A DNA stretch of 35,448 nt from Nitrospirota bacterium (GTDB taxonomy: Bacteria; Nitrospirota; Thermodesulfovibrionia; Thermodesulfovibrionales; UBA6898). The stretch is from positions 1-35,448 of the forward strand of contig SCQH01000104.1 of NCBI GenBank assembly GCA_004321925.1. The letters run 5' to 3'. Shown here piece by piece: positions 1,346 through 12,213 of the stretch. Under the pieces are notes generated by a model. That model made no database searches and was not told where the DNA came from. It saw only the letters and a program-made list of their open reading frames with translations. Within the stretch, counting starts at the first letter, position 1. Each line of letters starts with the position of its first letter. The position numbers and the translations under genes were made by a program.

Positions 1346-3421
1346 TCAGACCTTGAATTTGTGCAGCTCTTTCACCATGTTCATCGCCTCTTCCCGTAAA
1401 GAGCTGATGACCAGGTTCATCTCATTTGATGAATGTATGAGGTTTCCGGTCGTGCTCATCATCTTATCCATGGCCTGAACGATCCGGATGCTCTTTTCCT
1501 TCTGGCTGTTCGTCGCATTGGCTATCTGGGATGCCTGGTCGGTCACGTTCTCAATGACATGGGCGATCAGCTTGCTGCCGTCCTTCTGATCGCTGGTGGC
1601 TGTTTTGACCTGGCTGGAAAGCTCCTTGACCCGCTCCGTTGCTTCGATGATGAACCTGCTGCCTTTTGACTGCTCCTGGATCGCCCGTGAGATGGTCTCG
1701 GTCTGCTCGGTCATCCCGCCAATGGCATCCGTGATCTGTTTGAGGACGATGACCTCTTCCGCGGTCGCCCTCTGAATGGCCCGCGCCATCTCGGTCGACT
1801 CTTTCGAGCTGTCGACGATCTCGGTGAGCGCATTGCTGACATCCTGAACAAGGAGCAGACCCTTTTCAACGGTCTGTATCCCGTCCGATGCCATACGGAT
1901 ACTTGACTTTGTCACGTCCTGGACAGATTTGATCAGAGAGGCGATCTCACTGGTAGAGACCGAGGCCCTTTCAGCAAGGCTTTTGATCTCATCGGCAACG
2001 ATCGTGAACCCCTTGCCGTGTTCGCCGGCCTTTGATGCCAGGATAGCGGCATTCAGGGCGAGGAGATTGGTCTGGTCTGCCACGTCGTCTATGACATTCA
2101 ATATCTTGCCGATATCATTGGTCCGTTTTCCGAGCATGTTGATGACGTCAGAGAGTGCGACCACGCTTTTCTTTATATCCTCAATGCCGTTCATGGCAGC
2201 AGCAGCAGCATGCATACCGTTGTCAGACGCCTTGGTCATGACGGTTTCGGCAAGCCCGACGGAATCGTTCGCCCTGCGCTCAATATCCCGTGTTGTTGCG
2301 TTGACCTCATCAATGGAGGAGGCAATGTCTTCGGAGGAAGAGGACAGATTGTCTATGCTCCCTGCGATCTGCTTGATCGTGGAGATCATTTCCTCAATAG
2401 ATGAGGCAGTGTCATGCGCCGTCTCGCTGAAGATATTGGCATTTTCAGCGACCCGTTCTATGGAGGCGGACATCTCGAGGATCGACGACGAGGTGTCATT
2501 TGCGGATTCGGAAAGGTTTTCTGCACTGGTAGCGACCTTGGAGATAGAATTGTTGATCTCGTCTATGGTGGATGAGGTATCCTCGAGCGCCCTTTTCTGT
2601 ATATCCACTGCAGAGACAACGTCCTGGGACAGGGAAGCGATATTCGAGGTAACGCCGGTAACGCTGTTCGTGACCCCCCCGATCTTTGAGAGCATATCCT
2701 TGAGATTCATCGCCATCCGGTTGATGGCCTTGCCGAGGGAGGCCAGTTCATCGTCGCCGTTTATCTTGATCACATAGGTGAGGTCACCCGAAGCCATCCT
2801 GTCAGCCGCCTTTTCCATCACCAGGATCGGTTTGGTGATGAACCGGGAAATGGATAAATAGACAAGGCCGAGAGAAAGCAGGAAGCAGAGGGATGAAATG
2901 CCGACGGCCCAAAGGAGCAGGGTATAGAGCTGGCTCTTTATCGCGGCAAGATGCACGCCGACGCGCAGTGCGCCGATGACCTTGTTCTCTGCGTTCAGGA
3001 GGGGAAAGGAAAGATCATAGAAGGAACCCACGGTCTGGACAAGCGGTTTGTCGGAGGCCACGATGTTCTTCGTCGCCGGATCCTTCAGTTCCTTCCCGGT
3101 GCTGTTGGGGTCCTGGTGATAGAGGACCCGGCCGGTGATGTCGACCACCATGGCATATCCGATGGCCTTATCCCGGGTGATGAGGTCTTTCATCTTTTCG
3201 TTGACCCCGTCCATGGACTCAATGGGGACCCCGAGGCTCAGCACCTTGGCCAGTTCCCTCTGCATACCGTCACCGATCGCGGTCGTTTTGGACAGTATGG
3301 CGCCTTCGTATTTGTGAGATGCAATATACGTCAGAACGGCCGTGTTGATCGCAAGGATGATAAAGAGGATCCCCGCGACGATTGCGATCGACTTCTGTTG
3401 AAGGGTCATGCTGGTCTTCAT
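1346..3421 (-). CDS. Methyl-accepting chemotaxis protein
   Basis: A 691-residue transmembrane chemoreceptor. TM1 is about residues 12-34, followed by a periplasmic Cache-like sensor domain of about 130 residues (with VVDITGRVLYHQDP near 92-105), TM2 about 167-191, a HAMP domain about 192-245 and a long cytoplasmic signalling coiled coil. The hairpin tip, about 444-488, has the kinase-control signature DQTNLLALNAAI and GEHGKGFTIVADEIKSLAER, with Leu at the position that is usually Glu in NAAIEA. Four tandem 28-residue repeats begin at residues 281, 309, 337 and 365, and matching 28-residue repeats lie on the return helix. There is no C-terminal NWETF-like methyltransferase tether. Its start overlaps the stop of the binding-protein gene by 4 bp (ATGA), so it is the last gene of the electron-transfer operon. 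It probably signals through a CheA/CheW array encoded elsewhere. Confidence 0.93.
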   Translation of the reverse strand: MKTSMTLQQKSIAIVAGILFIILAINTAVLTYIASHKYEGAILSKTTAIGDGMQRELAKVLSLGVPIESMDGVNEKMKDLITRDKAIGYAMVVDITGRVLYHQDPNSTGKELKDPATKNIVASDKPLVQTVGSFYDLSFPLLNAENKVIGALRVGVHLAAIKSQLYTLLLWAVGISSLCFLLSLGLVYLSISRFITKPILVMEKAADRMASGDLTYVIKINGDDELASLGKAINRMAMNLKDMLSKIGGVTNSVTGVTSNIASLSQDVVSAVDIQKRALEDTSSTIDEINNSISKVATSAENLSESANDTSSSILEMSASIERVAENANIFSETAHDTASSIEEMISTIKQIAGSIDNLSSSSEDIASSIDEVNATTRDIERRANDSVGLAETVMTKASDNGMHAAAAAMNGIEDIKKSVVALSDVINMLGKRTNDIGKILNVIDDVADQTNLLALNAAILASKAGEHGKGFTIVADEIKSLAERASVSTSEIASLIKSVQDVTKSSIRMASDGIQTVEKGLLLVQDVSNALTEIVDSSKESTEMARAIQRATAEEVIVLKQITDAIGGMTEQTETISRAIQEQSKGSRFIIEATERVKELSSQVKTATSDQKDGSKLIAHVIENVTDQASQIANATNSQKEKSIRIVQAMDKMMSTTGNLIHSSNEMNLVISSLREEAMNMVKELHKFKV

Positions 3422-4353
3422 TTGATCACCCGTGTGGCAGCGGTCAGAAGGTCAAAGGGTATCTTGAGTCCCATTTCCGTAGCCTCCTTCAGGTTGATGA
3501 TCATATCAACTTTTTTGGGCTGCTGCACCGGTATCGAGGCAGGTTTTGCACCCTTGATGACCCGTGCGACCATTTTTGCCGTCTCTCTTCCCTGTTCCTG
3601 CGGGTTAGCAGCGATGGTGAGGATGACCCCGCTGTTCTCTCCGCCCCCGATGGTTGTTGCAGTCGGTATCTTTGCCTTCTTGGCTATGCCGATGATGTTA
3701 TTGACACAGTGCATAGCTGCACAGCCCGTAGTCATGAACAGGGCATCGACGTTGGTGATCTTTGCGGTATCCTCGGTCTTTTTAACATTAAATCTCACTG
3801 AATGGAAATTGAAGGTGCCTTCGAGCTGTTTTGCCTCGTTCGCCTGCAAGATGGTATCTTTCTCAGATTCGCTGTATATGATCCCGAGCTTCGTAAAGGC
3901 CGAGATGCCTTTAAAGTTCTTCAGGAGGCTGGCAACCGGGACCTTCGAGCTTATCCCTGTTGCATTCTTACCTGCAACTCCCAGCGCCTGGGGGTCATAC
4001 ACCCCGGCAAAGACAACCGGGATCTCGGTGGTTTCATGCAGGACCGACAGCGTCGCAGGGGCACCGTAGGATACGATGATATCAGCGCCGACGGCGACCA
4101 GTTTTCTCGCCGCGTTCGTCCATGACATAGGCTCAGGGTTCGGGCTCTGGAGGATAAGCTCCACCGTCCCCGGGGCAATACCTTCTGCCGCAAGTCCTTC
4201 GGTGAAGGCCTTGTGGATCTCCTTGTAATAGGGGATGCTGCCGGTCATGATAACGCCGACGGTCTTCTCTGCTGCCCATGCCGGGGCAGAACTGAGCAGG
4301 ATCAGGGTCATGACACCTGCTGCAATAAACTTATGTGATAACAATTTTCTCAT
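3418..4353 (-). CDS. Periplasmic substrate-binding protein, ABC_sub_bind (PF04392) type
   Basis: A 311-residue exported protein with an N-terminal signal peptide (hydrophobic core about residues 10-25, cleavage likely after APAWA). The body matches the solitary ABC_sub_bind family of two-lobe binding proteins: VGVIMTGSIPYYKEIHKAF at the start of lobe one, ADIIVSYGAPATLSVL and IPVVFAGVYDPQALGV in the middle, and NPQEQGRETAKMVARVI near the end. No permease or ATPase gene is nearby. The gene overlaps the chemoreceptor by 4 bp and follows the barrel gene by 11 bp. The known family binds small ligands such as aromatic amino acids or other organics. From the context I infer it may present a ligand to the chemoreceptor and not feed a transporter; the ligand cannot be read from the sequence. 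Confidence 0.88.
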   Translation of the reverse strand: MRKLLSHKFIAAGVMTLILLSSAPAWAAEKTVGVIMTGSIPYYKEIHKAFTEGLAAEGIAPGTVELILQSPNPEPMSWTNAARKLVAVGADIIVSYGAPATLSVLHETTEIPVVFAGVYDPQALGVAGKNATGISSKVPVASLLKNFKGISAFTKLGIIYSESEKDTILQANEAKQLEGTFNFHSVRFNVKKTEDTAKITNVDALFMTTGCAAMHCVNNIIGIAKKAKIPTATTIGGGENSGVILTIAANPQEQGRETAKMVARVIKGAKPASIPVQQPKKVDMIINLKEATEMGLKIPFDLLTAATRVIK

Positions 4354-4364
4354 TCACCGATCCT

Positions 4365-6332
4365 TTACCATTTCTTCGATATTGTGAGCAGGGCGATATG
4401 TGCCTTGCCGTTTGTGACATCGTCAAAAATATTGGCGAGAACGTCTTGTACTTCACTGTATCTGTATTTCACACCCACGGAAAAACCTTTTTTAAGATGA
4501 TACTCCCCTCCGGCAGTTACAACAGTTTCCCTGATTTTAAGCTCAGAAAAGGAAGCCACGGAAACAGGCTGAAGCAGCACGGAACTATTGGGATAAAAGC
4601 CTCCATTGCTGATCGTATGGCTGATGCCTCCGGTTACTATGATGGCAGTTGAGGGGCTATATGCAGCATCCAGGGAATAGCTGTGGACCCTGTCCTTGTA
4701 GGGAACGAGCGGGTCGATGAAGGGCGCCCCTGTTGCATTGTGGTATTCAATATCCTGCTGTATCTTGCTATGCATGTAGGAATAACTGCCGGTGACCGTG
4801 AGGTTCCTGAGGAGCCCGACAGTCAGGACACCCAGCAGCCTGTCCCGCGACACATCCCGGTGATCCCCCCCGGTAATGGTGCCGTTCGTTTCAAGAAAGT
4901 GCAGGTTGCTGCGTTTTTCTTTGATCTGGCTGTAGTTGACGTGTGCGCTGACGAACGGCAGGGGACTCCATGACAGGGAGATCCTGCCCTCATCGGAGCG
5001 GTCCGGATAAACATTATAGGCCGGGTCATCATTTTGCTGATGTATATATTTCGCCGTAAGCTGGACACCCCGTATAAGACGGATATCAGAGCTCAGGGAT
5101 GCCGTATTTTTTTGCGTTGATTCGGCAACCTTGATCGTGTCGGCATGATTCCTTTTTATGTCGTCATGACTGTATTCTGCCTTGAACGCAACGCCGGTAA
5201 CGGGTCTGTATCTCACAATTCCCGTAATCGTGTCAGACACCGACGTAACCGACGGCTCAACAGGATAGGTATACGTGTTCGAAGGGTTAAGCCTGTCTGT
5301 GATGGTGACGGTCTCCGGATTTTCGATATCGATATCCTTATGCCGGTATTTTAATACCATTACCAGCCGGGGCGTTGCAGTCCAGATCAGCTCGCCGGCC
5401 CCGATAAAATACTTGGATTTTGTCCCGCTGCTTTGGTTTTCCCTGTCCTGTTGCGAAAAGGTCGCGGAGGCCACAAGACTGCCGGTATAGGACGTATGCA
5501 GTTTGAGCGTGTTTGTCGAGCCCTTGAGTTCGGGGATCAGATTATGCGGGTATTCGCCGGCAGCGCGGGCAGGGGCCGCTGTAACAGCCGAGTATGTATC
5601 AAAGAAAACATTTGTGCCCCCCACGTCCAATCTCTTTTCAGCGTGAGACAAGTCGACCTCAACAGGTCCGAGATGGCTGTTGAGTCCGAGCACTATGTTC
5701 TGTGTCTTCCAGTCCACATCCCGTGCCTGGGATGTCCTTATGATGCTGTTGTTGCTCCCGGAACCCAGGAGAAAGCGCTGCTGCTGGCTTCCCTCCCGTG
5801 TAGTATGGGAGCCGTCTATATACACATGAAGAGGAAAGTCACGGGTCTTAAACCTGAGGAAGACGTTGCTCATAGTACGCTTAATGCCATAATTTACGCC
5901 GGCATCCCTGCTGTTATCAACTCCCGGGCTGGCAGTTGCAGGATTCAGGTCGACCAGGGTTCTCTGGTCCAGATTATGAAATAATCCCCGAAAAACGCCT
6001 CTGAAGACAACCGTATCTTCGTAGGCATAATTAATGTCCCCGAAGTAATCCTTTATGTTATTAAGTTCAAAATCAAGATGGACGCGGTGCGGAAAACTGA
6101 AAAAGCGGTGCTCAGCTCCGAACGTTACCGAATTCTTCAGGTATTCGTATTCAGCAGCGCCGGCAGACCCTCTGAGGCTGGTATATCTGTATCCGGCTGA
6201 AAGGGAGGTCTCAGGAGCGATCGAGGGGAAAACATAGGCCTCGTCAGAGGCAGGCTCCTCAGCATAGGTATAGGCCTTCAACGCGGTGAGCGATACCATC
6301 GTTATAATCAAAATGAATATTATCTTTTTCAT
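4365..6332 (-). CDS. MtrB/PioB-like outer-membrane beta-barrel of a porin-cytochrome conduit
   Basis: A roughly 655-residue exported protein: signal peptide (hydrophobic core IIFILIITMVSLTAL), a short periplasmic N-terminus, then alternating aromatic and polar strands throughout (for example LSAGYRYTSLRG, VVFRGVFRGLFHN, LVMVLKYRHKDI, FSVGVKYRYSEV) ending in a C-terminal Trp, as expected for an outer-membrane barrel. The length fits the decaheme-associated MtrB/PioB family, whose barrels sheath a decaheme cytochrome and pass electrons across the outer membrane. I see no cysteine, so the N-terminal CXXC of Shewanella MtrB is absent. An ATG six bases upstream, at 6338, is in frame, but AGGAGG at 6340-6345 sits 7 nt from the ATG at 6332 and only 1 nt from the other, so I use 6332. 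The decaheme gene is immediately upstream. The family call rests on size, barrel pattern and neighbour. Confidence 0.8.
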   Translation of the reverse strand: MKKIIFILIITMVSLTALKAYTYAEEPASDEAYVFPSIAPETSLSAGYRYTSLRGSAGAAEYEYLKNSVTFGAEHRFFSFPHRVHLDFELNNIKDYFGDINYAYEDTVVFRGVFRGLFHNLDQRTLVDLNPATASPGVDNSRDAGVNYGIKRTMSNVFLRFKTRDFPLHVYIDGSHTTREGSQQQRFLLGSGSNNSIIRTSQARDVDWKTQNIVLGLNSHLGPVEVDLSHAEKRLDVGGTNVFFDTYSAVTAAPARAAGEYPHNLIPELKGSTNTLKLHTSYTGSLVASATFSQQDRENQSSGTKSKYFIGAGELIWTATPRLVMVLKYRHKDIDIENPETVTITDRLNPSNTYTYPVEPSVTSVSDTITGIVRYRPVTGVAFKAEYSHDDIKRNHADTIKVAESTQKNTASLSSDIRLIRGVQLTAKYIHQQNDDPAYNVYPDRSDEGRISLSWSPLPFVSAHVNYSQIKEKRSNLHFLETNGTITGGDHRDVSRDRLLGVLTVGLLRNLTVTGSYSYMHSKIQQDIEYHNATGAPFIDPLVPYKDRVHSYSLDAAYSPSTAIIVTGGISHTISNGGFYPNSSVLLQPVSVASFSELKIRETVVTAGGEYHLKKGFSVGVKYRYSEVQDVLANIFDDVTNGKAHIALLTISKKW

Positions 6333-6339
6333 GTCCATG

Positions 6340-6345
6340 CCTCCT
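6340..6345 (-). promoter_or_regulatory. Ribosome binding site deciding the barrel start
   Basis: AGGAGG on the minus strand overlaps the TAG stop of the upstream decaheme cytochrome gene. Its spacing of 7 nt to the ATG at 6332 favours that start over the ATG at 6338. The overlap with the upstream stop suggests translational coupling, so that cytochrome and barrel are made together. Confidence 0.65.
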
Positions 6346-7339
6346 ACTGTATGAACCTGCCCTTGCCGCTTGCGGAAGGGATGTCAGTACCATGTATCGT
6401 AGAGTGACAATCAGAACAACGCGTATTGCGTGCTGCCCTGTTTTCGGCACTCGTCAGTGGTCCGGTCCGGTGTCCGGCATGACACTGCAGGCAGAGGAAC
6501 GGGGGAGGGGTTGTCAGCAGGTTATTGTTCGGAGAGCCATGCGGACTGTGGCAGGTCCTGCAGTCCTCGGTGTTCTCGGCATGCTGGAACGCAAAAGGAC
6601 CCTCTTTCTCTGCGTGACATTGGGTACAGGTTTCCTTCACCGTCGGTTTTCTCAGGAGTTTTTCGTTGATCGAGCCGTGCGGATCGTGGCAGTCATTACA
6701 GAAGACACGTTTTTCAGGAACAGGGTGATGGCTCGGAAGGGAAAACTCGGCCTTTGTTGTCAGGTGGCATTTGTCGCACATCTCAGCCATATGCTGGAGT
6801 TCCACTTTTAAATCCGAGCCCGCATGGACCTTATGGCAGTCCGAGCAGGCAACGTCGCTGACCGCATGAGTTCCGGCGTTCCAGTTATGGAGATTGAACG
6901 TTGCATTGGCAGTATGGCATTTGAGGCATATAAGCGATTTTGCCTGGGCAGGCAGGGTCTTGAGATCTATCAGGGTCTTGTAATCGCAGGCAGTCTGCTT
7001 TCCTGCCCTGGCATCTTCCGCAACTTTTTCCGGGGTCAACCCTTCAACAGCAAGGCTGCCCGGGCCGTGGCAGGACTCGCAGTCCACCAGAGGCAGGTTC
7101 ATCTTCCGCGAGAGCTGCACACCCATGGTGCTGGCGTCGAAGTCCTGCTTGATCTTGTCATGGAAATGACAGGCTGAAAGACAGGTGCGGGTGCCAATAT
7201 AGTTTGCATCGAGTCGGCCTGCTATCATTTTTTCATATTCCTTGATGGGGATGATGGCCTTTGAGGCCTTCAGCGTCTCACAGCCCGTGAGCACCAAAGA
7301 GGCCATTAAAAGGAAAAAGAAGATATTCCTGGTTCTCAT
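6344..7339 (-). CDS. Decaheme c-type cytochrome lipoprotein, MtrA/DmsE-like
   Basis: A 331-residue exported multiheme cytochrome. A lipoprotein signal peptide ends in LTGC with the lipidated Cys at residue 20. Nine CXXCH heme sites start at residues 87, 138, 165, 188, 214, 238, 260, 283 and 308; a tenth, CLSACH at 53-58, has three residues between the cysteines. Additional histidines (for example HNW, HKVH, HHP, DPHGS, IHGT) can act as distal ligands. Ten hemes in about 330 residues, with even spacing, match the DmsE/MtrA family that carries electrons through the outer membrane inside an MtrB barrel. The gene is the first of the operon, with a good promoter in front and the barrel gene 11 bp downstream. 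The lipid anchor is a difference from soluble Shewanella MtrA and more like the anchored cytochromes of Geobacter conduits. No separate extracellular cytochrome gene lies in the window. Confidence 0.9.
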   Translation of the reverse strand: MRTRNIFFFLLMASLVLTGCETLKASKAIIPIKEYEKMIAGRLDANYIGTRTCLSACHFHDKIKQDFDASTMGVQLSRKMNLPLVDCESCHGPGSLAVEGLTPEKVAEDARAGKQTACDYKTLIDLKTLPAQAKSLICLKCHTANATFNLHNWNAGTHAVSDVACSDCHKVHAGSDLKVELQHMAEMCDKCHLTTKAEFSLPSHHPVPEKRVFCNDCHDPHGSINEKLLRKPTVKETCTQCHAEKEGPFAFQHAENTEDCRTCHSPHGSPNNNLLTTPPPFLCLQCHAGHRTGPLTSAENRAARNTRCSDCHSTIHGTDIPSASGKGRFIQ

Positions 7340-7368: not shown

Positions 7369-7397
7369 ATAATATAAATAAATGAGATTTAAGTCAA
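7369..7397 (-). promoter_or_regulatory. Sigma-70-type promoter of the cytochrome-chemoreceptor operon
   Basis: On the minus strand TTGACT (7397-7392) and TATTAT (7374-7369) are separated by exactly 17 bp; each matches the consensus at five of six positions. Transcription would start near 7362, about 22 nt before the cytochrome ATG at 7339, whose ribosome-binding GGAGG lies in between. The surrounding region is AT-rich compared with its genes. Confidence 0.6.
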
Positions 7398-7826: not shown

Positions 7827-10081
7827 TCAATAAGGAACTGGAACTGACGCTTGAGGCCACGATACGCGACGCAAAGGTGCAGAATCACGAGTACCTCACC
7901 ATAGAGCATATTCTCTATGCCCTGCTGCATAATGACCGCGGCATCGAGATCATTACGAACTGCGGCGGGAGCATTAGCCGCATAAAGAAGTCCCTGGAGA
8001 AATACTTCAGGGAGGACCTGCCGAAGATCGGCGGGGACCCGGCCCTGTTCCCCCAGCCGACTCCCGGGTTCCAGAATGTGCTGCAGAGGGCCCTGTTCCA
8101 TACCCGGTCTGCATCAAAAGATGAAACGGACGCAGGGGACCTGCTTGCGGCCATCCTCCTTGAAACGGATTCCCGTGCCTCGTATGTCCTGGAGTCGGAG
8201 GGGATCAGCAGGCTCGATGTCCTGAACTACATCTCACACGGCATCTCAAAATCTGCCGAAAAGAAGGAAGGGGAAAATGGCTCAGGCCAGGACGATCTCC
8301 CGCAGGACGACAAGGGGAGGGCCGCTCAGCCTGACCCGCTTAAAAGCTTTACGGTCAATCTGACCGAGAAGGCGGCAAAGGGGCTTATCGACCCGCTTAT
8401 CGGCAGGGCCGCTGAATTGAAGAGGACCGTCCAGGTGCTCTGCCGCCGCAGAAAGAACAATGTTGTATTTGTCGGAGAACCGGGGGTCGGCAAGACCGCG
8501 ATCGTGGAAGGGCTGGCCCTGAAGATCCACAATGAAGAAGTACCCGATCTTCTGAAGAACACGCAGATATTCTCTCTCGATATGGGCGGGATTCTTGCCG
8601 GGACAAAATACCGGGGCGATTTCGAGGCTCGCCTGAAGGCAACGATAGACAGGATCGAAAAGATACCCGGGGCCATCCTCTTCATCGATGAGATCCATAC
8701 GATCGTCGGCGCCGGCTCCACGAGCGGCGGGTCCATGGATGCCTCAAATATCCTCAAGCCGGTCCTGAACTCCGGAAGGATCAGGTGTATCGGGGCGAGC
8801 ACCTATGAGGAGTACCGGAATTACTTTGAGAAGGACCGTGCGCTTTCGCGCCGTTTCCAGAAGATAGAGATACAGGAACCTTCGGTCAGCGAGACCATAG
8901 AGATCCTTACCGGGCTGAAGGATTACTATGAAGGCTTCCACGGGGTCCGCTATACTGAGCGGTCCATCAAGGCGGCTGCGGAGCTTTCTGCAAAGTACAT
9001 CAATGACAAGTTCCTGCCGGACAAGGCGATCGATGTCATCGACGAGGCCGGGGCCATCTCACGGCTTACGGAGAAACCAGGACAGAAAAGGGTCATCGGG
9101 ACAAAGGAGATCGAGGGCGTTGTGTCGGATATTGCACGGGTCCCGACCAGGACCGTCTCGACCACTGACATGGAAAAGCTGAAGAACCTTGAGGACGAAC
9201 TCAGGGGTGTGGTCTTTGGCCAGGACCAGGCGATCCATTCCCTCTGCTCTGCCATTAAGCGGTCGCGGTCGGGGCTTGGGGCTCCTGAAAGGCCGATAGG
9301 CTCTTTTCTTTTTGCCGGGCCTACCGGGGTGGGGAAGACCGAGGTCTCCCGCCAGCTTGCTGCAGCCCTCGGCGTCAAGTTCGTAAGGTTCGATATGAGC
9401 GAATATATGGAAAAGCATTCCGTGGCGCGTCTGATCGGCGCGCCTCCCGGATATGTCGGTTTTGACCAGGGCGGGCTTCTGACCGAGGCTGTCCGCAAGA
9501 ACCCCTTCTGTGTGCTCCTTCTGGATGAGATCGAAAAGGCGCACCCGGACATCTTCAGCATCCTGCTGCAGGTGATGGACTATGCGACCCTGACCGACAA
9601 TACCGGGAAAAAGGCGGACTTCAGGAACGTTATCCTGATCATGACCTCAAACGCAGGGGCCAGGGAGATGTCCGGCCAGACCATCGGCTTTGGTGAACGC
9701 TCAAAGGACTCCCTCTTCAAGGGTGAGGCGGCGGTCACCAGGACCTTCAACCCCGAGTTCCGCAACCGTCTCGATGCCATCATTACCTTCGGGCCGCTGG
9801 ACAATGAGGTCATGAAGAGCATCGTCCGGAAGTTCTTCACAGAGATCACCCGGCAGCTCACCCAGAAGAAGGTGACGATCGATATCTCTGACGAGGCCGT
9901 GGCCTCGCTTGCCAGGAAGGGCTACGACCCTGTCTATGGTGCACGCCCCCTGTCGAGGCTTATACAGTCGGTGATCAAGGACAGGCTTTCGGATGAACTC
10001 CTTTTCGGAAAGCTGATTAAAGGCGGCACGGTCGCGATCGGGCTTAAGGACGAAGAAATAACGTTCATCTTTTCGGAGTAG
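7823..10081 (+). CDS. clpA: ATP-dependent Clp protease ATP-binding subunit ClpA
   Basis: A 752-residue AAA+ unfoldase that hands substrates to the ClpP peptidase. The N-domain (1-145) has the double Clp-N repeat that docks ClpS. D1 has Walker A GEPGVGKT at 218-225 and Walker B ILFIDEIH; D2 has Walker A GPTGVGKT at 499-506 and Walker B VLLLDEIEKAH. The short linker between them lacks the long coiled-coil M-domain of ClpB. An IGF tripeptide at 621-623 (GQTIGFGE) corresponds to the IGL/IGF loop that contacts ClpP, so this is a protease partner and not a disaggregase. The gene sits between clpS (4-bp overlap) and aat (12 bp). clpP is not in the window. Confidence 0.97.
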   Translation: MINKELELTLEATIRDAKVQNHEYLTIEHILYALLHNDRGIEIITNCGGSISRIKKSLEKYFREDLPKIGGDPALFPQPTPGFQNVLQRALFHTRSASKDETDAGDLLAAILLETDSRASYVLESEGISRLDVLNYISHGISKSAEKKEGENGSGQDDLPQDDKGRAAQPDPLKSFTVNLTEKAAKGLIDPLIGRAAELKRTVQVLCRRRKNNVVFVGEPGVGKTAIVEGLALKIHNEEVPDLLKNTQIFSLDMGGILAGTKYRGDFEARLKATIDRIEKIPGAILFIDEIHTIVGAGSTSGGSMDASNILKPVLNSGRIRCIGASTYEEYRNYFEKDRALSRRFQKIEIQEPSVSETIEILTGLKDYYEGFHGVRYTERSIKAAAELSAKYINDKFLPDKAIDVIDEAGAISRLTEKPGQKRVIGTKEIEGVVSDIARVPTRTVSTTDMEKLKNLEDELRGVVFGQDQAIHSLCSAIKRSRSGLGAPERPIGSFLFAGPTGVGKTEVSRQLAAALGVKFVRFDMSEYMEKHSVARLIGAPPGYVGFDQGGLLTEAVRKNPFCVLLLDEIEKAHPDIFSILLQVMDYATLTDNTGKKADFRNVILIMTSNAGAREMSGQTIGFGERSKDSLFKGEAAVTRTFNPEFRNRLDAIITFGPLDNEVMKSIVRKFFTEITRQLTQKKVTIDISDEAVASLARKGYDPVYGARPLSRLIQSVIKDRLSDELLFGKLIKGGTVAIGLKDEEITFIFSE

Positions 10082-10093
10082 ACGACCGCCGCC

Positions 10094-10753
10094 ATGACGG
10101 TCTTTCAGCTTACTGACGAGCTTATCTTTCCGCCGGCGGATCGCGCCGACCCCGACGGGCTGCTTGCTGTCGGCGGGGACCTCAGCAGCGACAGAATTCT
10201 GCTTGCCTATTCACAGGGAATTTTCCCCTGGTACTCGGACGACTCACCCATACTCTGGTGGTCCCCTGACCCGCGTCTTGTCCTGTTCCCTGATGAACTG
10301 AGGGTCTCACGGAGCCTGAAGCAGGTCATAAAAAAGGGCGACTACCGGGTCACGTTCAATACGGCATTTAAAGACGTGATCAGAAACTGTGCCTCGGTCT
10401 CAAGAAAAGAGGGGGACGGCACCTGGATCACCGATGAGATGACTGATGCCTATTGTCTGCTTCACGACCGGGGCTTTGCGCAGTCGGCTGAAGCGTGGTA
10501 TGGCGATGAGCTGGCCGGCGGGCTCTATGGTATAGGCCTCGGCAATGTCTTTTTTGGTGAATCGATGTTTGCAAAAAGGTCCAACGCCTCGAAGGTCGCT
10601 TTTGTCGCCCTGGTAACGGCCTTACAGGCGCAAGGCTGCAGAGTGATCGACTGCCAGGTCAGGACCGGACACCTGATGAGCCTCGGCGCCAGAGAGATCC
10701 CGCGGGCCGATTTTGTCAGAATGCTTGAGGAAACCTTCGGGATGCCGGCTTAA
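10094..10753 (+). CDS. aat: Leucyl/phenylalanyl-tRNA-protein transferase
   Basis: A 219-residue cytoplasmic enzyme that moves Leu or Phe from aminoacyl-tRNA to the N-terminal Lys or Arg of a protein, creating an N-degron for ClpS. All family blocks are present: GLLAVGGDLSSDR, AYSQGIFPWYSD, WWSPDPRLVL, TWITDEM, GGLYGIGLGNVFFGESMF, ASKVAF, DCQVRTGHLMSLGAREIPR. The length is typical. It starts 12 bp after clpA and is the last gene of the clpS-clpA-aat operon. Its TAA at 10751-10753 overlaps the stop of the convergent ubiD gene within the palindrome TTAA, so there is no space for a terminator between them. Confidence 0.97.
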   Translation: MTVFQLTDELIFPPADRADPDGLLAVGGDLSSDRILLAYSQGIFPWYSDDSPILWWSPDPRLVLFPDELRVSRSLKQVIKKGDYRVTFNTAFKDVIRNCASVSRKEGDGTWITDEMTDAYCLLHDRGFAQSAEAWYGDELAGGLYGIGLGNVFFGESMFAKRSNASKVAFVALVTALQAQGCRVIDCQVRTGHLMSLGAREIPRADFVRMLEETFGMPA

Positions 10754-12213
10754 AACCCGTATTCCTTCCAGCGGGAATCGACAAGCTTCTTTATCTCTTC
10801 GGACATGAATATCTCATCCGGCCACTCGCGCATCATGCCTTCTTCGCGGGTCTTGCGGGTTGCATCGATGCCCATCTTCGAACCGTAGCGCGGCCAGTTT
10901 GCCGCATGGTCGAGAGCATCGAGCGGACCGTCGGCAAAGACCGTGTCGCGCTTCCAGTCGACGTTGTTCAGCACACGCCAGGCAGTGTAGGAGAGGTTCT
11001 GGACGTCCACGTCGTCATCCACCACGATGAGCAGCTTGGCAAACATCATCTGGCCTTTGCCCCAGAGCCCGCTGATGATCTTTTTGGCGTGGCCTGGATA
11101 GCTTTTCTTTATCGAGATGATCGCAAAGTTATGGAAGACCCCTTCCATCGGAAGGTTCAGATCGGTTATCTCAGGAAAGTCGAGCCGGACCAGCGGAAGG
11201 AAGATCCTTTCGGTCGCCTTGCCCATGTAGCAGTCCTCCATCGGGGGCTTGCCGACGATGGTTGCCGGGTAGACCATGTCCCTGCGGTGCGTGATGCAGG
11301 TGACATGAAAGACCGGGTACGGATCGGCAGGGGAATAAAATCCGGTATGGTCACCGAAGGGCCCCTCGATGCGCGTCTCGCCCGGATCAAGGTACCCCTC
11401 GATCACCATCTCGCTGTTTGCCGGCACCTCGATGTCCGAGGTGATGCACTTGACCATCTCGACCGGGGACCTTCTCAGAAAACCGGCAAAGAGCATCTCG
11501 TCGATCGCCTCAGGAAGCGGGGCGCTTGAGGCGTAGATGACCGCAGGGTCTGACCCGACGGCTATCGCAGCCGGCATGCGCATGCCGAGCTTGAGGTATT
11601 TATCATAATGGCGGGCCCCGTCCTTATGGATATGCCAGTGCATACCGGTGGTCTTCTTATCGTAAATATGGATGCGGTACATGCCGCAGTTCGGCCTCCC
11701 GGTCTCAGGGTCTTTGGTAAAGACCATCGGAAAAGTTATGAATCTGCCTTCATCGCCGGGCTGCCCGTCTCCGGGCCAGCATTTGAGTACCGGGAACCTC
11801 CCGAGGTCAGGGTTCTCCTTTTCGACAACCTCCTGGCAGGCGGCATTCTTCACTCTCTTGGGCAGGTACTTCGAGAACTCGAAGAGTTTTGGGAGCAGTG
11901 CCAGCTTTTCAAGGATATTTTTCGGGGGGGCCTGGTTCAGCAGCTCCTCGATCCGTGCGGCGATATCGTCGAGCTTGTTCACCTCCAGCGACAGCGCCAT
12001 ACGCGAGAACGAACCGAAGATGTTGGTGACGACCGGGAAGTCCGAGCCCTTCACCTTTTCGAAATAGAGCGCCTTGCCGCCGCCGGGCGATTTGGACATG
12101 CGGTCGGTGATCTCAGTGATCTCAAGTATCGGATCGACCTCGGTTTTTATGCGCAGGAGCTCGCCGTTATCCTCAAGTTTCCTTATGAATTCCCTTAAAT
12201 CCCTGTAAGCCAT
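10750..12213 (-). CDS. ubiD: UbiD family prenylated-FMN decarboxylase
   Basis: A 487-residue decarboxylase of the UbiD family, which uses prenylated FMN to remove a carboxyl group from aromatic or unsaturated acids; classic members act on 4-hydroxy-3-polyprenylbenzoate in ubiquinone synthesis, and close homologues serve menaquinone pathways. Visible blocks include RPNCGMYRIHIYD (with an Asn near residue 175 and Arg near 180), MHWHIHKDGARHY, PANSEMVIEGYLDP and RIEGPFGDHTGFY (Glu near 283), all around the cofactor and metal site. The UbiX flavin prenyltransferase is not nearby, so the substrate cannot be assigned from context. An anaerobe would more likely use it for menaquinone or aromatic-acid metabolism than for ubiquinone. 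It appears to be monocistronic, with an AT-rich upstream gap shared with the divergent NifU-like gene. Confidence 0.92.
   Translation of the reverse strand: MAYRDLREFIRKLEDNGELLRIKTEVDPILEITEITDRMSKSPGGGKALYFEKVKGSDFPVVTNIFGSFSRMALSLEVNKLDDIAARIEELLNQAPPKNILEKLALLPKLFEFSKYLPKRVKNAACQEVVEKENPDLGRFPVLKCWPGDGQPGDEGRFITFPMVFTKDPETGRPNCGMYRIHIYDKKTTGMHWHIHKDGARHYDKYLKLGMRMPAAIAVGSDPAVIYASSAPLPEAIDEMLFAGFLRRSPVEMVKCITSDIEVPANSEMVIEGYLDPGETRIEGPFGDHTGFYSPADPYPVFHVTCITHRRDMVYPATIVGKPPMEDCYMGKATERIFLPLVRLDFPEITDLNLPMEGVFHNFAIISIKKSYPGHAKKIISGLWGKGQMMFAKLLIVVDDDVDVQNLSYTAWRVLNNVDWKRDTVFADGPLDALDHAANWPRYGSKMGIDATRKTREEGMMREWPDEIFMSEEIKKLVDSRWKEYGF

Follow-up and report, generated by a model that had tools for sequence, protein, structure and literature searches.

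Why should the genes of a putative extracellular electron conduit share an operon with a chemoreceptor and a binding protein? The question is raised by four genes on the minus strand of the window, the stretch of 35,448 nucleotides analysed here (Nitrospirota contig SCQH01000104.1, assembly GCA_004321925.1). The genes and the promoter that precedes them are listed in the order of transcription.

7369-7397, minus strand: sigma-70-like promoter (TTGACT-N17-TATTAT) ahead of the cytochrome gene (scan and conservation).
6344-7339, minus strand: decaheme DmsE/MtrA-type cytochrome lipoprotein, 331 aa (TIGR03508, 6r2q_A, 19 orthologs).
4365-6338, minus strand: MtrB/PioB-like outer-membrane beta-barrel, 657 aa (PF11854, AlphaFold2, 6r2q_B).
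3418-4353, minus strand: solitary periplasmic substrate-binding protein (SBP), PF04392, 311 aa (Pfam, AlphaFold2, PDB fold matches).
1346-3421, minus strand: chemoreceptor (MCP) with the architecture TM-sCache_3_2-TM-HAMP-MCPsignal, 691 aa, with the tip sequence NAAILASKAGEHGKGF (Pfam, TM segments, arm length, tip).

In the list of open reading frames of the window, the cytochrome and barrel genes are separated by 5 bp, the barrel and SBP genes by 11 bp, and the SBP and MCP genes overlap by 4 bp, which bears out the four genes, coordinates and spacings described in an earlier note on this DNA. The operon comprises these four genes only and, having neither a surface cytochrome nor a terminal reductase, does not amount to a complete system of the MtrCAB or DmsEFAB kind. 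The promoter scored 10 of 12 in the scan, which is weak by itself, given 7 promoter-like hits against 4.4 expected. Its -35/-10 block, TTGAC(a/t)...TATtAT, is retained in all seven aligned upstream regions from members of the genus and family, and the promoter that the note had placed ahead of the gene set can thus be upheld.

The cytochrome has nine CXXCH motifs, one CXXXCH motif (CLSACH) and a lipobox (LTGC), and its score against TIGR03508 (DmsE), 243.7 bits, lies above the cut-off of 192.2, in agreement with the decaheme lipoprotein read earlier from the sequence. The heme motifs and the lipobox cysteine are invariant across 19 aligned orthologs. The CXXXCH motif is the first heme site (residues 53-58) and is the same in all 19. 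A profile search against the PDB returned 6r2q chain A (E 1e-52), which we take to be MtrA; this search labelled the chain cystathionine beta-synthase, an ill-fitting name, and the fold search titles 6r2q as the Mtr complex. The nearest named families for the cytochrome and the barrel are those of Geobacter GSU2203-GSU2204 (OmcK and its partner; NF041028 and NF041027), and both window proteins score under the curated cut-offs (220 against 325 and 86 against 350 bits, respectively). Several of the order's families have a gene for a 7-heme cytochrome ahead of the conduit (L057, L059, L061, L063, L098, L107, L112).

The barrel passes PF11854 (MtrB_PioB) with 35.1 against a gathering score of 23, and stays below TIGR03509, the MtrB/PioB decaheme-associated subfamily, with 19.8 bits against a cut-off of 240. 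Its sequence profile found no MtrB chain in the PDB. The AlphaFold2 model (pLDDT 87.7) has as its top PDB fold match 6r2q_B of the Mtr complex (E 8e-21, TM 0.73), and the runner-up has an E-value of 1e-9. On the PF11854 and 6r2q_B matches, we rejected the possibility that the barrel is unrelated to MtrB, and its earlier description as MtrB/PioB-like holds. We regard the cytochrome and barrel as a putative porin-cytochrome conduit of the MtrAB/DmsEF type, with a presumed conduit activity. Like Shewanella MtrAB(C) and DmsEF, it pairs an MtrA/DmsE-type decaheme cytochrome with an MtrB-type barrel, and chains A and B of 6r2q are the best structural matches. Unlike in these systems, the operon is without MtrC/OmcA or a DMSO reductase, the SBP and chemoreceptor coming next instead; the first heme motif is CXXXCH, and the barrel is far under the TIGR03509 cut-off.

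The barrel is present in 34 of 61 relatives. The order cytochrome-barrel-SBP-MCP is found again, amid varying flanking genes, in members of the genus and the family and in other families of the order, and in a phylum-wide sample two families outside the class of the window's organism (f22 and f23) also carry the SBP and MCP in this order. The closest named loci are those of Nitrospirota metagenome-assembled genomes, including the same-genus Thermodesulfovibrio sp. SW.3.86 (L074), with a cytochrome 82% identical. Since families with different flanking genes keep the four-gene order, the arrangement is more than chance, and chance adjacency was rejected; the order is likewise not confined to one genome, an outcome that would have counted against the earlier note.

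A scan of named genomes yielded 80 cytochrome loci. The conduit is followed by an SBP and an MCP in 22 of them, with a gap between the two that is mostly -4; by an SBP, a PhnD-type SBP and a histidine kinase in 13, plus three that are cut off (type B); and by an SBP, a 13-heme cytochrome and another MCP in five (type C). Ten loci with complete flanks contain the conduit without SBP or MCP, and the conduit therefore does not need them. The rest are cut by contig ends or unresolved, and a few of the 80 are under-classified owing to spurious antisense frames among the long-ORF calls in GC-rich relatives. Pfam bore out the domain composition of representative loci. Surface cytochromes with 10 or 13 hemes occur in f23 and in type-C relatives. 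Type-B operons (L077, L082, L091, L099, L133, L142, L150 and others) combine the conduit with a PF04392 SBP, a PhnD-type SBP and a kinase bearing CXXCH; some add a sigma-54 response regulator, and the type resembles AioX/ArrX systems.

The SBP belongs to PF04392 (115 bits, Pfam), and its AlphaFold2 model (pLDDT 88.6) has as its closest PDB structures 3lft (with L-Trp), 3lkv and 6hni, the last of which is CD0873, a tyrosine-binding protein. The TorS-TorT complex 3o1i is also among the fold matches, and the score against TrpX is 131.5 bits, short of the cut-off of 390. Permease or ATPase genes adjoining the SBP gene were not found in the window. A role as part of a transporter was rejected on the missing permease and on paralogs (contigs C37 and C57) that adjoin histidine kinases. 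The genome encodes four PF04392 proteins, and the other three are all next to histidine kinases, not transporters (L180:3234-10242, L181:4881-8758). A CxxxxC pair (C211 and C216 in the window SBP) occurs in most MCP-type SBPs, is absent from the kinase-type SBPs, and is lacking in L106 and L130. The SBP tree sorts by partner type, with 4 changes against 19.4 in shuffles, and the SBP has therefore been inherited with its partner.

The chemoreceptor is an MCP by its domains (sCache_3_2, HAMP and MCPsignal by Pfam), with TM segments at residues 5-36 and 164-193 and no heme motif. Its signalling hairpin has about 32 heptads per arm (a class of about 64 heptads by arm length), the C-arm spanning 226 aa. 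The genome encodes about 15 MCPs and about six CheA clusters. Among its MCPs, the tip NAAIL..AGEHG together with the arm length is common only to the receptors of the window, contig C28 and contig C113, a grouping also seen in the tree; the tip of C28b reads AGEYG. At the tip (residues 457-470), NAAIL stands in place of NAAIE, with Leu for a Glu conserved in most MCPs, and is invariant in the class. Clustering is expected among MCPs that belong to one class (PMC2577667). Contig C28 carries the genes RR-CheA-AAA ATPase-CheW-MCP-PBP-MCP-CheW-HEAT-CheR-CheB, and all five MCPs of this class in the genome have a binding protein fused or adjoining. Some MCPs have a PhnD-type (PF12974) binding domain fused C-terminally to their signalling hairpin, at L172:4021-6873, at L177:1771-4704 and 9135-11999 (the window's genome) and at L206:8809-11715. 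Since no TM helix lies between hairpin and domain, this domain is predicted to be cytoplasmic in the fusions.

Within the window's genome, the receptor and the CheA cluster lie on different contigs, and the window receptor is therefore linked to C28 by homology and class. Relatives join the two physically. Families f22 and f23 have RR-CheA-AAA ATPase-CheW-cytochrome-barrel-SBP-MCP-(MCP)-CheW-HEAT in one run (L206 by Pfam), with a 10-heme cytochrome gene before the conduit cytochrome in f23. Their RR, CheA and ATPase share 43-63% identity with those of C28 in the window's genome, and CheW and HEAT about 28-42%. The C28 CheA is the best match in that genome for the CheA of f22 and f23, at 505-600 bits; the other five CheAs reach about 300 or less. 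In G055, a member of the window's own order, the start of the cytochrome gene diverges from RR-CheA-ATPase (L213), and these three are 61-68% identical to C28. The RR, CheA and ATPase of G055, f22 and f23 are thus, judged by sequence, orthologs of the C28 cluster. A C28-type CheA was found in 24 of 27 operon genomes against 18 of 34 others, an association that its p-values overstate, as the genomes compared are related; in G018 (96% complete), the operon is present and a C28-type CheA was not found.

We consider it probable that the operon encodes a conduit-coupled chemosensory input, in which an SBP-gated MCP feeds the CheA of C28. The protein identities, the conserved order, the joining to the CheA cluster seen in relatives, the match of receptor class and the lack of FliM (below) are what this model builds on; from them, we infer the conduit activity, the docking, the ligand and the output. 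The solitary PF04392 protein would act as a periplasmic sensor and not as part of a transporter, binding a small molecule, possibly a shuttle, an acceptor or an aromatic compound. It would dock on the Cache_3 domain of the MCP encoded by the overlapping gene, in the manner of RbsB on Trg, and the MCP, being of the C28 class, would signal through the C28 CheA. The SBP and the MCP are linked by co-occurrence, by the overlap of their genes and by joint inheritance. Co-transcription would ensure that the receptor is present whenever the conduit is made.

The MCP might instead respond to the conduit, to its redox state or the electrons flowing through it, for instance via the CxxxxC of the SBP or by contact with the cytochrome, and not to a soluble ligand. 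We think this unlikely, though it is the best placed of the alternatives. The type-B kinases, which occupy the same operon slot, all bear CXXCH in the periplasmic domain, at residue 88 (15 of 15), as expected of c-heme sensors; the cysteine pair accompanies MCP-type SBPs and is lacking in the kinase type; and in f22 and f23 the Che operon encloses the conduit. Against it, the window MCP is without a heme motif, the pair is absent in L106 and L130, and the amino-acid-binding fold of the SBP suggests a soluble ligand. The type-B heme kinases, like the cysteine pair, favour looking at redox, and the SBP fold favours a small molecule.

It is improbable that the operon serves the sensing of a nutrient or aromatic amino acid (Trp- or Tyr-like) that is merely co-expressed with the conduit and unrelated to electron transfer. 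The closest folds do bind L-Trp (3lft) and tyrosine (CD0873, 6hni), but the TrpX score is far off its cut-off (131 against 390), and the association with the conduit in three receptor contexts, together with conservation across the phylum, argues for a conduit-related cue.

Least probable of all is chemotaxis by swimming toward an electron acceptor or shuttle in solution, the sense in which the earlier note's taxis is taken here, for even though the MCP, CheA and CheW are present and mineral congregation by Shewanella oneidensis needs the Cache MCP SO_2240 and mtrBC/omcA (PMC5789149), FliM, the sole flagellar gene checked, was not found at E 1e-3 in the window's genome, which is rated 100% complete, and is absent from 22 of 27 sampled operon genomes (15 of 18 at a completeness of at least 95%) and present in five. 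With FliM missing here and in most carriers, swimming is very unlikely as the output in this organism; flagellar taxis was rejected for the window's genome on these grounds, barring a flagellum of some unrecognised type. Of the earlier interpretation, the tie of a conserved, dedicated MCP and SBP to an MtrAB-like conduit stands, and taxis, as worded there, is not supported. PilT is present in all 61 genomes. Under the preferred reading, in which the C28 CheA takes its input from an SBP-gated receptor, the output in a cell without a flagellum would, if behavioural, most likely run via type IV pili as a surface behaviour, or else be regulatory, acting on gene expression or biofilm.

Sensing of a respiratory substrate by a periplasmic binding protein that signals to a membrane receptor, beside respiratory genes, is the principle of TorT-TorS-TorR and of AioX/ArrX-AioS/ArrS. 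Type-B operons share with the AioX/ArrX systems a PhnD-type SBP and a kinase. Unlike in Tor, Aio and Arr, the receptor of the window is an MCP, the SBP is of PF04392, and the respiratory genes are those of an outer-membrane conduit. The electrode sensing network EsnABCD of Geobacter sulfurreducens (GSU1704, GSU2220, GSU2222, GSU3376) likewise couples chemosensory signalling to extracellular electron transfer and is not a swimming taxis (PMC5585712). By description, its CheW-ATPase-CheA gene set resembles that of C28; its MCPs are of class 40H, against about 64H by arm length here, and a link to a conduit or SBP is not described (PMC5585712). Congregation in S. oneidensis is one behaviour that needs both a conduit and a Cache MCP, involving mtrBC/omcA, SO_2240 and CheA-3 (PMC5789149); unlike in the window, the genes are at distant loci by locus tag, no SBP is described and the output is flagellar. 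A paper on pcc clusters makes no mention of chemotaxis (PMC4245776), and our literature search found no described conduit-chemoreceptor operon. The parts are of known kind, and the wiring is new and conserved.

How bacteria sense the availability of insoluble or extracellular acceptors is an open question, in which Esn and the Shewanella congregation implicate chemosensory proteins. We tentatively suggest that the Che pathway and the MtrAB-type conduit of Nitrospirota may form one unit with the conduit as an input to the chemosensory array, so that non-flagellated cells could read the availability of extracellular acceptors or donors via conduit, SBP and receptor and adjust gene expression or how they behave on surfaces; a heme histidine kinase could take the receptor's place. 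Few members of this phylum have been cultured, and its conserved operon, with three interchangeable kinds of receptor and, for some families, the entire Che pathway, gives a direct handle on the ligand (via the SBP), on the receptor and on the kinase.
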